From NCBI RefSeq assembly GCF_002954455.1, contig NZ_MSCC01000001.1, positions 757,205 through 821,204 on the forward strand: 64,000 nt of DNA, given 5' to 3'. Both the position numbers and the translations under genes were made by a program. Position 1 is the first letter of the stretch, and each line of letters starts with the position of its first letter. The notes below the pieces were generated by a model. The model saw only the letters and a program-made list of their open reading frames with translations. It searched no databases and had not been told where the DNA came from. Positions 3,465 to 64,000 of this stretch are shown in pieces. Origin of the DNA: Photobacterium aquimaris (lineage in GTDB: Bacteria > Pseudomonadota > Gammaproteobacteria > Enterobacterales > Vibrionaceae).

Positions 3465-3483
3465 CTATCGCTAATGGACTAAG

Positions 3484-3513
3484 AAAAAACCCGCAATCAT
3501 TGCGGGTTTTTTT
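3484..3513. terminator. Bidirectional terminator between sohB and yciN
   Basis: The hairpin AAAACCCGCAAT-CA-TTGCGGGTTTT is flanked by A and T tracts. It sits between the convergent ends of sohB and yciN, with the T run reaching to 3 bases from the yciN stop codon. Confidence 0.88.
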
Positions 3514-3516
3514 GAT

Positions 3517-3774
3517 TTAAACCAGTAGTGTACTAAGGGTAAATTCTGGCGATAATTTATGAGCAAGGAATTTGAACATATTAAAGACAGCCGTTGTTTT
3601 AGCGGTTGGTAAGCCGTCTTCATCAAGGAAATATTCACCTTTAAAGATCAATACGCCGTCTTTTTCTGTTACAGATGTTGCGCGCATACCTTCAATATAA
3701 TCTTTGTGATCTTGAATGATTTGGTTGGCGATCATTAATAGCTCATTGATCGAAATTTCAACTTTATTAGCCAT
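3517..3774 (-). CDS. yciN: YciN family protein (DUF2498)
   Basis: A small cytosolic protein of 85 residues from the YciN/DUF2498 family, biochemical role unknown. It is recognised by the [20 protein letters not shown] stretch, nearly the same in E. coli YciN, and by its place between sohB and topA. No signal peptide or membrane segment is visible. ATG at 3774. Confidence 0.88.
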
Positions 3775-62118: not shown

Positions 62119-62459
62119 AGTATTTATGCACTTCGTTATTAAATTTCATTTGTAGCATTCTTGTCATCAAGTTGCCCATATATTGAAACTATACTACTTA
62201 ACTCTTAACATAACCTAGTGATTGACGGTCTTTTTCAGGGCGTTTTTATTAGATTTTGATCGAGATCGACTTTTTATTTTCAGAATTGAAACTTATAAAA
62301 CAAATATGTTGGAATTTATTATTCTATTTTTCTAACTATCAGTATTTATTCTAAAAATAAGGATTTATTTCGAACTGTAAAATAAATTGAGAGGGTTTAA
62401 TTTTATAATGTAATGGGAAATTATAAATTTAATTAACGATGGGTAAATAAGGAGTATCA
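62119..62459. other. Divergent gap between hexR and the YeeZ-like gene
   Basis: AT-rich, no gene seen. Holds an inverted repeat TTATAAT/ATTATAA (62403-62426) and AAGGAG at the YeeZ-like start; no convincing promoter pair. Confidence 0.4.
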
Positions 62460-63284
62460 ATGAAAGTAAGTATTTGTGGCTGCGGATGGCTCGGATTACC
62501 GTTAGCATTATCATTAAAATCTCAAGCGATTGAGGTTTGGGGGTCAAAAACAACGTTAGTGGGCGTTGAGTCATTAAAACCGCAGGGAATTAAAGGATGC
62601 TTATTAACATTGCCTATTAGTGGGGAAGTTAATGCCGCCATTAATCAATTTCTAGCAACGGATGTATTAATAATAGCAATTCCACCTGGGCGCAAGAATC
62701 TTAATCCACAAGCTCATATTGAAAATATCATGTCATTATCGATAGCAGCCCAGAGAGCGGGTTGTCAGCGAATTATTTTTATCAGTACGACTTCAGTGTA
62801 CGACCCATTACAAGGCGAAGTTGTTGAAGTAACGCCAGTTAGACCAAATACCGCCTCAGGAATATTACATTATCAATTAGAACAACAGTTACGCCAACAT
62901 TGGCAGCATAATTTAACTGTATTACGGCTAGCGGGTTTGTTTGGTCCATCGCGGCACCCAGTAAAATTTTTATCAGGACGTCAATTGAGTGCAGCTAAAC
63001 AGCCGGTTAATCTGGTTCACTTAGATGATTGCATTCAAGTTATCTCGGCAATTATTCAGCAGACAGTGTCGATGCCAATCATGCACCTTGCTGCAAGCTC
63101 TCATCCTAGTCGTGAGCAATATTATACGGCAATGGCTCTGAAAGCTCAGTTACCACCACCTGATTTCAATCAAGATAATGATGGGGTGAATGGTAAAAAA
63201 ATAAACTCAAATCAAACGCTTAGTTATCTTGGTATAACGATGAAATATGATGATTTATTACAAGGTATGCCAGAACTAGGGTAA
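62460..63284 (+). CDS. YeeZ-like NAD(P)-dependent epimerase/dehydratase
   Basis: Extended SDR-like protein of 274 residues. The Rossmann motif is CGCGWLGLPLA; SVYD (ISTTSVYDPL) resembles the Ser/Tyr active site and LAGLFGPSRHPVKFL is typical of the E. coli YeeZ group. The usual YxxxK is altered (HYQLEQQL), as in that group. Good AAGGAG site. Substrate unknown; probably monocistronic. Confidence 0.82.
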   Translation: MKVSICGCGWLGLPLALSLKSQAIEVWGSKTTLVGVESLKPQGIKGCLLTLPISGEVNAAINQFLATDVLIIAIPPGRKNLNPQAHIENIMSLSIAAQRAGCQRIIFISTTSVYDPLQGEVVEVTPVRPNTASGILHYQLEQQLRQHWQHNLTVLRLAGLFGPSRHPVKFLSGRQLSAAKQPVNLVHLDDCIQVISAIIQQTVSMPIMHLAASSHPSREQYYTAMALKAQLPPPDFNQDNDGVNGKKINSNQTLSYLGITMKYDDLLQGMPELG

Positions 63285-63303
63285 GAAGAGTAAAAAAACA
63301 GGC

Positions 63304-63372
63304 AAAAAAAAGCGCTGCAATAAACATATCAGCGCAAATAAAAAATACAATAAGGAGTTAAAGCAGTAGTAG
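63304..63372 (-). ncRNA. Candidate sRNA, tandem unit A
   Basis: Minus-strand unit of about 70 bases: a conserved 27-base block (63344-63370, 25 of 27 shared with unit B, with ACTACTGCTTTAA at its 5' end), an anti-Shine-Dalgarno-like AACTCCTTATTG, then a terminator with arms GCGCTG/CAGCGC and T8. The poly-U is only on this strand. A TTTAAAT box lies just upstream. Function unknown. Confidence 0.55.
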
Positions 63373-63516
63373 CAATTTAAATTACAGGTCTGTTTGACGG
63401 CCAGAAAAACAAAATACTTACCTATAATTTCAATTCTTATATATCAGACTGCCGATTAATAATAAAGTTCAGTTAAATCGAAAAAAAGAGATATTTATTT
63501 TTTAGGGATTTTAGGC

Positions 63517-63595
63517 AAAAAAATCCCGCTGAAAATAGTCAGCGGGAAGGAGATTATCCAAAAAAATACAATTAGGATTTAAAGCAGTAGTGAAT
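63517..63595 (-). ncRNA. Candidate sRNA, tandem unit B
   Basis: Second unit, about 80 bases. The conserved 27-base block is at 63565-63591; the terminator arms are CCCGCTGA/TCAGCGGG with a 6-base loop followed by ATTTTTTTGCC. A T run plus GCC follows the terminator in both A and B. An additional TCTCCTTC segment can pair with GAAGGAGA-type ribosome sites. Confidence 0.55.
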
Positions 63596-63741
63596 TAAAC
63601 ATTTAATAAAAAGTGATTACCGTTGAGTAAAAAAAATTTTATCAAATTGAATACATAAGTAAGAGTTGTTATTGCGAAGAAAGTTCAAAAAAAAATGCGA
63701 TTATTTGAAATTATTATCTTTATTGATTAATTACGTTGTAA

Positions 63742-63812
63742 ATAAAGGAAACCCATCAACAAATGTTTGCTGATGGGCGGTGAAGTAAAAACTTCTAAAA
63801 AAAGCAGTGGTA
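63742..63812 (-). ncRNA. Candidate sRNA, divergent tandem unit C
   Basis: Third, more divergent unit. It keeps ACCACTGCTTTTTTT (63797-63811 on the plus strand) behind a TATATATA box, has a small hairpin GAAGT/ACTTC and ends in CCCATCA/TGATGGG with a T-rich but interrupted tail. Spacing to B (about 227) is like that between A and B (about 213). Confidence 0.45.
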
Positions 63813-63970
63813 TATATATGACACGCATTTATATCATTGGTTCCATTTTATTATAGATATCGAATGAAATTACTCTTTATTGTTGATTTTAATTACTTTA
63901 TTTTGATGCGATATTTTAAATGACAATTCGTGATGTAGCGCAATTGTTAATCCCGCTGTGGTTGTGTAAT

Positions 63971-63990
63971 ATTTAAACAAGCGTTTAAAT
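63971..63990. promoter_or_regulatory. 20-bp palindrome, possible TetR-type operator
   Basis: ATTTAAACAAGCGTTTAAAT has perfect 8-base arms around AAGC, in the form AAAC-N4-GTTT often bound by TetR-family regulators. The gene it would control lies outside the window. Bases 63826-63970 hold nothing else I can support. Confidence 0.4.
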
Positions 63991-64000
63991 TGGATGAATA

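Follow-up and report, generated by a model that had tools for sequence, protein, structure and literature searches.

A tandem array of sRNA-like units in Photobacterium and its likely relationship to the VrrA and MicV/RybB small RNAs

Organization of the Array

The window analyzed here, a 64,000-nt stretch of the Photobacterium aquimaris genome, carries close to its right-hand end an array of three sRNA-like units, designated A, B, and C, on the minus strand (63304-63844; Table 1). These units stand alone between a gene for an NAD-epimerase-like protein and a divergently transcribed gene for a TetR-family regulator; ORFs of 20 to 35 aa overlap the array region. The TetR-family gene, of which the first bases lie in the window, is presumably PsrA-like, and the genes that follow it past the window are, judging from their sequences, fadE-like and fabV-like.

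Three minus-strand units had been placed here by an earlier note on this DNA, and scans for repeats, for a core pattern, and for terminators confirmed them. The block shared by A and B that the note had pointed out was found as a 31-nt segment with 94% identity at a spacing of 221. When up to 3 mismatches were permitted, the 24-nt core pattern matched only A and B in the 4.5-Mb genome from which the window was taken, and the reversed pattern, used as a control, had no matches in that genome. A terminator scan of positions 62200-64000 returned three sites (those of B and C and one within the epimerase gene) versus 1.0 ± 1.0 in shuffled sequences. The terminator of unit A folds, although it is absent from the scan output because its loop exceeds the permitted length.

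TABLE 1 Features of the array and its flanks, in window positions (both A and B belong to the alignment behind the R2 model)
Feature	Positions	Strand	Evidence or remarks
NAD-epimerase-like gene	62460..63284	+	Convergent with the array; neighbor kept in the genus; name assigned by eye
Unit A, predicted RNA, ~134 nt, VrrA-like	63304..63437	-	R2, 65 bits (3' part, 63305-63374); fold (whole-RNA z, -1.3, weakly better than shuffles); VrrA comparison
Unit A, terminator hairpin, then T8 (63311-63304)	63312..63335	-	Fold
Unit A, pairing segment CTACTGCTTTAACTCCTTATTGTA	63346..63369 (genome 820550-820573)	-	Core pattern; invariant alignment columns
Unit A, leader loop CTGGCCGTCAAA	63393-63404	-	Shared with VrrA
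Unit A, leader stem AAATTATAGGT/ACCTGTAATTT	within 63304..63437	-	Leader-helix search
Unit A, σE-type promoter, GAACTT-N16-TCTGA	63444..63471	-	Sequence boxes
Unit B, predicted RNA, ~137 nt, VrrA-like, without the GGCCG loop box	63517..63653	-	R2, 77.5 bits (3' part, 63517-63595); whole-RNA fold z, -4.65
Unit B, terminator hairpin, then T7	63524..63547	-	Terminator scan
Unit B, pairing segment CTACTGCTTTAAATCCTAATTGTA	63567..63590 (genome 820771-820794)	-	Core pattern; invariant alignment columns
Unit B, leader stem ATTTGATAAAA/TTTTATTAAAT	within 63517..63653	-	Leader-helix search
Unit B, σE-type promoter, GAACTT-N16-TCTTA	63660..63687	-	Sequence boxes
Unit C, predicted RNA, ~71 nt, RybB/MicV-like, 5' end CCACTGCTTTTTTT unpaired	63740..63810	-	R3, 79.3 bits; whole-RNA fold z, -6.0; 5' 15 nt unpaired
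Unit C, terminator hairpin, CCCATCA...TGATGGG	63751..63778	-	Terminator scan; 10 pairs, 6 with compensatory changes; fold
Unit C, σE-type promoter, GGAACC-N17-TCATA	63817..63844	-	GGAAC.AA and GTC.TA invariant in 15 aligned sequences, window included
TetR-family (PsrA-like) gene, first bases	63994..64000	+	Divergent, flanks the array; continues past the window; kept at Vibrio VrrA loci

Common Features of Units A and B

Units A and B follow the same layout: a σE-type promoter is followed by a leader hairpin, then by a seed (CACTACTGCTTTAA-TCCTNATTGT), and finally by a terminator. Their pairing segment has two parts: CACU(A/G)CUGCUU, the seed that they share, and UCCUNAUUGU, an anti-Shine-Dalgarno element. 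In the folds of A and B, the seed sits between two hairpins, with most of it unpaired; that of C is wholly unpaired. The covariance model of the A/B type, R2, was built from 49 aligned units from genomes of the same genus and replaced a first model with an automatic 3-pair structure, which was poor. Invariant columns of the A/B type read ACT.CTG....AA.TCCT.ATTGT and are followed by a terminator whose stem changes in sequence and stays paired: 7 of its 9 pairs have changed on both sides, 87.9% of the cells are paired versus 34 to 53% when the stem is slid, and none of 500 shuffles reached its covariation score.

A leader helix was sought between the first 32 and the last 30 nt of 94 leaders (93 units and VrrA, units without a promoter box at 60 to 112 nt being omitted). 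It extended over at least 7 bp in 78 of the 94, versus 42% of mononucleotide shuffles, and over at least 8 bp in 61, versus 19%. Many unlike sequences form these stems, for example, the one in unit A (Table 1), GATTAAAGA/TCTTTAATC, and ATTAATGGAGAT/ATCTTCATTAAT. For the VrrA leader, the search gave a stem other than the GTGACAG/CTGTCAC pairing that is visible by eye. A GGCCGY box, represented in the leader loop of unit A, was seen in 34 of 94 distinct A/B-type units and also in the V. cholerae-type VrrA (0.6 in shuffles, none on the reverse strand); unit B has no such box.

Stems that differ in sequence and are still paired were among the observations of the earlier note, and its proposal to look for covarying stems in the homologous regions of relatives was carried out: the terminator stems covary in the A/B type and in the C type alike. 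This covariation, together with conservation in relatives, supports the idea that these are sibling sRNAs that act in trans and have a pairing segment in common. C belongs to an RNA family distinct from that of A and B.

Relationship of Units A and B to VrrA

A search against Rfam, also suggested in the note, gave no match at gathering score anywhere in the window. With E values of up to 10, the top rows came from unrelated families and VrrA (RF01456, with a gathering cut-off of 50 bits) appeared as a weak row for unit A (16 bits, E of 5.5); unit B was absent from that list. The weak row provided a lead, and the family, which the earlier note did not recognize, could be recognized through the VrrA locus. 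Across the family, Rfam VrrA matches exceed the cut-off in 116 of 247 genomes, none of them in this genus, where the best row has 34.6 bits.

The vrrA gene has been described as lying between vc1741 and vc1743 and as encoding a 140-nt, σE-dependent RNA that acts on ompA (PMC2628432). Published VrrA positions include G73CU75 (ompT), A91CUCCU96, and C100UUGUGU106 (rbmC) (PMC4108314); locus L113, from the genome with the best Rfam VrrA match, fits this numbering in all these elements and in the length of 140 nt. A TetR gene of the vc1741 type is found next to the array in the window and at 7 Vibrio-type loci that pass the Rfam cut-off, and its location suggests that the TetR gene in the window is a homolog of vc1741. 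Units A and B further resemble VrrA in having σE-type promoters (Table 1), predicted lengths of 134 and 137 nt compared to 140 nt, the order of the CUGCUU seed and the ACUCCU element (with GCU at 73-75 and ACUCCU at 91-96 of VrrA), and a predicted OmpA target. The pairing elements read CUGCUU followed by AACUCCU in A and by AAAUCCU, one base off, in B. The loop CTGGCCGTCAAA is common to VrrA and unit A, whereas B lacks the loop box. Unlike VrrA, A and B score under the Rfam cut-off, the spacer between their two pairing elements is shorter or altered, and units of their type occur in up to six copies on one contig, with seven matches in one genome. In the RNA alignment with VrrA, the references L117, L078, and L123 are absent, and the ACUCCU element of the V. 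cholerae RNA is misaligned.

Outside the genus, R2 matches were obtained in 16 genomes, all of them weak, and 15 of these places were fetched (the one in G127 was left out). The same TetR gene adjoins the match at 12 of the 15 loci, 7 of which pass the Rfam VrrA cut-off. The exceptions, L065, L066, and L068, along with L079 from within the genus, which has no TetR gene in the fetched stretch, are taken as chance matches or left unassigned. The L065 stretch (G061, genus g11) shows at ∼2479-2557 a unit-like R2 match, CTACTGCTTTATGAAATCCTTATT, with an E value of 1e-4 and no TetR gene in the fetched 5 kb.

Judging from these sequence comparisons, A and B look as if they are built like VrrA and placed where VrrA sits, yet they fail the Rfam score test. 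It is unlikely that they represent an independent family that converged at the same locus on σE control and an OMP-directed seed. The failure of the Rfam VrrA model within the genus, the strong divergence of the leaders and of A from B (see below), and the weak R2 scores of the Vibrio-type VrrA (18.8 to 26.7 bits in L113-L117) can be cited for such an origin; against it stand the same TetR-adjoining place, the promoter, the similar length, the seed/ACUCCU order, and the loop common to A and VrrA, as well as the fact that VrrA-type units adjoin a C-like unit in genera g3, g5, g6, and g8.

Two other comparisons can be mentioned here. VadR of V. cholerae was considered as another short, conserved envelope sRNA and was dropped because, as described, it has a different locus and carries a VxrB motif. 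Qrr, CsrB, LhrC, and OmrA/B each comprise several sibling copies of one regulatory RNA, with regulators and targets that differ from those proposed for the array. They resemble it in the sibling copies, a likeness that for LhrC and OmrA/B is one of analogy alone, and none of the four had an Rfam match in the window at gathering score or with an E value of up to 10.

Promoters and RNA Length of the A/B Type

Among the 94 distinct A/B-type units from the loci examined, 92 have a strict σE box, GAAC[CT]-N17-TC[TAC].A, upstream, and in 90 it is located 60 to 100 nt before the core. The corresponding frequency in dinucleotide shuffles was 0.27% (0.11% with the distance requirement), and the other strand gave 0 of 94. 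Placing the +1 position 7 nt past the -10 box, on the model of VrrA and RybB, gives predicted RNA lengths of 134 (A), 137 (B), and ∼71 nt (C). Accordingly, the 65- to 80-nt length that had been proposed for the RNAs is replaced for A and B by a predicted ∼135 nt, and the units as drawn earlier are probably the 3' halves of longer RNAs. The "conserved 5' segment" of the earlier note is indeed conserved, but it probably does not form the 5' end of the A and B RNAs, whose predicted start lies 63 to 68 nt upstream, behind the σE-type promoter and before the leader hairpin.

A first reading of the region had placed a σ70-type promoter directly before the CTACTGC segment and was dropped because the upstream σE boxes proved conserved. 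The corresponding alternative, that the sRNAs are 65 to 80 nt long, with their own promoter (σ70 or other) directly before this segment and only incidental σE-like boxes upstream, has an even smaller chance of being correct than convergence with VrrA. AT-rich, -10-like hexamers can be seen by eye just before the segment in several units, RybB (as annotated) and unit C (as predicted) begin at this very segment, and a longer RNA could be processed to a short form. Yet the strict σE box keeps a similar distance in those 90 of 94 units, a leader hairpin of changing sequence lies between the predicted start and the segment, the same long layout is found in Vibrio VrrA, and a σ70 scan of the region showed no excess over shuffles (8 found, 8.9 expected).

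Unit C and the RybB/MicV Type

The C type was modeled separately (covariance model R3, for which 14 sequences from the genus were used, unit C among them). Its conserved features are the CCACTGC.TTTT segment, a small hairpin, and a terminator in which 6 of the 10 pairs show compensatory changes. The 5'-terminal seed typical of RybB and MicV, (G)CCACUGCUU, is found at the predicted +1 of unit C, and a σE-type promoter immediately precedes the RNA in 15 of 15 aligned C-type sequences. When applied to E. coli rybB, R3 gave an end-to-end match at the annotated position (30.1 bits, E of 4.7e-4 over 75 kb), which amounts to detectable homology of unit C to a known RybB; the Rfam RybB model was absent among the 14 matches with E values of up to 10 in the window. 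Like unit C, E. coli RybB has a comparable 5' end, (G)CCACUGCUUUU, the CCCAUCA/UGAUGGG terminator, and a σE-type promoter (GAACTT-N16-TCTTA). It differs in its locus, in a longer middle segment, and in that Rfam gives unit C no RybB score.

R3 matches were detected in 219 of 247 Vibrionaceae genomes, including 48 of the 52 in the genus. The model also scores unit B (24 bits) and a VrrA-type unit in L067 (23 bits). In a V. cholerae-like genome, the R3 match lies between ORFs identified by eye as argH- and sthA-like. MicV of V. cholerae is described as a σE sRNA with a seed common to VrrA and RybB (PMC7602753, PMC11005410). Unit C likewise has a σE-type promoter, and its Vibrio counterpart can be inferred to be MicV. 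The two differ in location: C-type units adjoin VrrA-type units in Photobacterium and in g3, g5, g6, and g8 (all 9 genomes of these four genera for which both rows are listed), as opposed to none of the 33 genomes compared from g12 (Vibrio-type), where the two are at least 0.9 Mb apart in 32 genomes and on another contig in 1. The sequence data are best explained by unit C being a separate ∼71-nt σE-type RNA with its 5' end, CCACUGCUU, serving as the seed. In L124 (G083, genus g9), a C-like unit was observed between epimerase-like and TetR genes, with no R2 or Rfam VrrA match listed.

Distribution and Copy Number

The 611-nt region as a whole or in part has a DNA match in 38 of the 52 genomes of the genus. 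R2 matches 49 of the 52, including all 48 good ones (completeness of at least 90% and contamination of no more than 5%). At an E value of 0.01, the genus contains 138 matches; the genomes with none, one, two, three, four, five, six, and seven matches number 3, 6, 16, 17, 5, 2, 2, and 1, respectively. One of the 138, in contig C48 of G046 (E of 0.005), is probably a stray match, and the seven in G017 are located at two contig ends and may include an assembly overlap. In G030 and G031, six A/B-type matches each were found on one contig. Elsewhere in the window, at positions 3477-3533, the minus strand carries a partial A/B-like segment, CACTACTGGTTTAAATCA, together with a hairpin resembling a bidirectional terminator; this R2 match (21.1 bits, E of 0.036) is probably due to chance.

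In named genomes, the core pattern occurs in at least 118 stretches. Among the 80 stretches listed, every record with more than one match is from Photobacterium, with 4 in P. rosenbergii, 3 each in P. carnosum, P. piscicola, and P. marinum, 2 each in P. damselae, P. profundum, and P. phosphoreum, and further matches in others; single matches in other genera, among those listed, look like chance.

In the clade of the window, A and B are 47% identical to each other and 91 to 93% identical to their closest copies elsewhere, which points to two old and separately conserved units. Copies are nearly identical in some other species, reaching 0.99 within the locus in L014, and in a nearest-neighbor comparison, 12 of 78 units had their closest copy within the same locus rather than elsewhere. 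This pattern suggests recent duplication or homogenization in some genomes only. It is very improbable that we are dealing with a selfish or structural DNA repeat or with terminators that have no sRNA function: near-identical tandem copies such as those in L014 and a transposase-like ORF (named by eye) inserted near one array (L127) would fit a repeat, but this does not agree with the age and separate conservation of A and B, with conserved promoters, seed, and structure, with matching target sites, or with the lack of a further copy in the same genome.

Both types are present in 47 genomes of the genus. Unit C lies less than 500 nt from the first A/B unit in 29 of these, at 1.5 to 3.1 kb in 13, and split off in 5. 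In the latter five (G018, G022, G036, G037, and G050), the C unit and the A/B array lie on separate contigs or at a distance of over 1 Mb, which may reflect a split of the locus. The wide gaps in four stretches (L127, 1253-3572; L129, 999-2123; L130, 2894-3901; and L154, 5499-6755) contain ORFs that by eye resemble a 403-aa transposase (L127), a peptidase (L127, L129, and L130), and a transporter (L154).

Predicted OmpA and Porin Targets

In the same genome, 12 start regions were compared with the seeds, 7 from Porin_4 genes (one under the cut-off and three FadL-like by eye) and 5 from OmpA_membrane genes. A perfect complement of at least 8 nt was found in 9 of the 12, although in 2 of these (L138 and L146) it is merely A-rich and pairs only with the U tract of C, versus 7 of 65 background starts (Mann-Whitney test on the longest match, p of 1e-4). 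Shuffled seeds gave such complements in a mean of 1.67 starts, and none of 1,000 reached 9. The OmpA leader L144 contains TACAATTAGGA, with 11 nt complementary to B; the AGGA in this site is ∼16 nt before the start codon, which is far for a ribosome site. Another OmpA leader, L145, has AGCAGTAGTG, with 10 nt complementary to B and 9 to A. Porin L139 carries AGCAGTGGTA, 10 nt complementary to C, in its first codons, and the strongest duplex with C (-21.1 kcal/mol, a value as low as which was found in none of the 65 background starts) is formed by the leader of porin L137. The suggestion that the CTCCTTATTG part of A could pair with ribosome sites is supported by complements at the ribosome sites of the OmpA-like gene L147 (GGAGTTAAA, 9 nt) and of porin L140 (AGGAGTTA, 8 nt).

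A wider set drew on the OmpA matches of the whole genus, 81 in all; it comprised 58 of their starts, most of them from the best copy in the respective genome, and these starts are related. GYAGTGG, the complement of CCACTRC, was present in 44 of the 58 leaders, 43 of them having it at -40 to -28; ACAATTAGGA was present in 9, and one or the other in 53. The controls gave 0.21 in mononucleotide shuffles, 1 of 118 in other genes, and 0 for five control motifs. The GYAGTGG motif was picked after the leaders had been viewed and the genes are related, so this result should be regarded as support rather than proof. A blunter test with the seeds derived from the window and complements of at least 8 nt gave a weaker result: 39 of the 58 OmpA starts matched, versus a mean of 11.4 and a maximum of 37 for shuffled seeds. 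The starts of L275 and L288 look mis-set in this test.

Proposed Function and Significance

Taken together, these data make it quite likely that the locus is a σE-driven array of Hfq-type sRNAs that repress OmpA and porins, comprising unrecognized relatives of VrrA and MicV/RybB, with the VrrA type amplified in tandem. What the DNA itself shows are conserved promoters, stems, and seeds, the conserved locus, and target sites complementary to the RNAs; from these we infer transcription, dependence on σE and Hfq, and repression of OmpA and porins. Each of the three units would be an sRNA gene in its own right on the minus strand, with a σE promoter and a terminator of its own; B and A would encode ∼135-nt VrrA-type RNAs whose leader hairpin and terminator frame the pairing segment. 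Misfolded outer-membrane proteins could be expected to free σE, which would transcribe the A, B, and C RNAs; with Hfq, these would pair with OmpA and porin mRNAs in the leader or in the first codons. Such pairing, either upstream of the ribosome site (through the seed) or over it (through the anti-Shine-Dalgarno part), would block translation and lower the envelope load.

A more far-reaching scenario, to which we assign somewhat less than an even chance, concerns the origin of the array and the division of labor within it. VrrA and MicV, which act redundantly as σE sRNAs in V. cholerae, may have arisen from neighboring genes at the TetR (psrA) locus; MicV would have left this locus in Vibrio, and Photobacterium would have kept the pair and amplified its VrrA side to as many as six or seven copies. 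In the clade of the window, A and B might then split the work, with the anti-Shine-Dalgarno element of B fitting one OmpA mRNA and the CACTACTGCT seed fitting another, C would fit two porins, and the conserved GGCCG leader loop could be a further working part.

If correct, the proposed identity extends a well-studied envelope-stress sRNA arm of vibrios to a genus with nothing over the Rfam cut-offs, indicates that this arm can multiply in tandem, and suggests a common home of VrrA and MicV. Copy numbers that naturally range from one to six or seven would allow the effects of sRNA copy number (dosage, target division, and noise) to be tested within one genus, and direct, mutable predictions follow from the seed, which hardly varies, and from the OmpA leaders that match it. 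No report of VrrA in Photobacterium or of tandem σE VrrA arrays in Vibrionaceae was found in the open-licence literature, within which three points are new: that these RNAs are recognized in Photobacterium, that they are amplified in tandem, and that the VrrA and MicV/RybB types share a locus. An RNA-seq study of P. profundum described 460 putative sRNAs, with 150 of the transcripts in repeated regions (PMC3505737). Neither VrrA nor RybB is named in its main text, and the array RNAs may already be present, unnamed, in its sRNA table.
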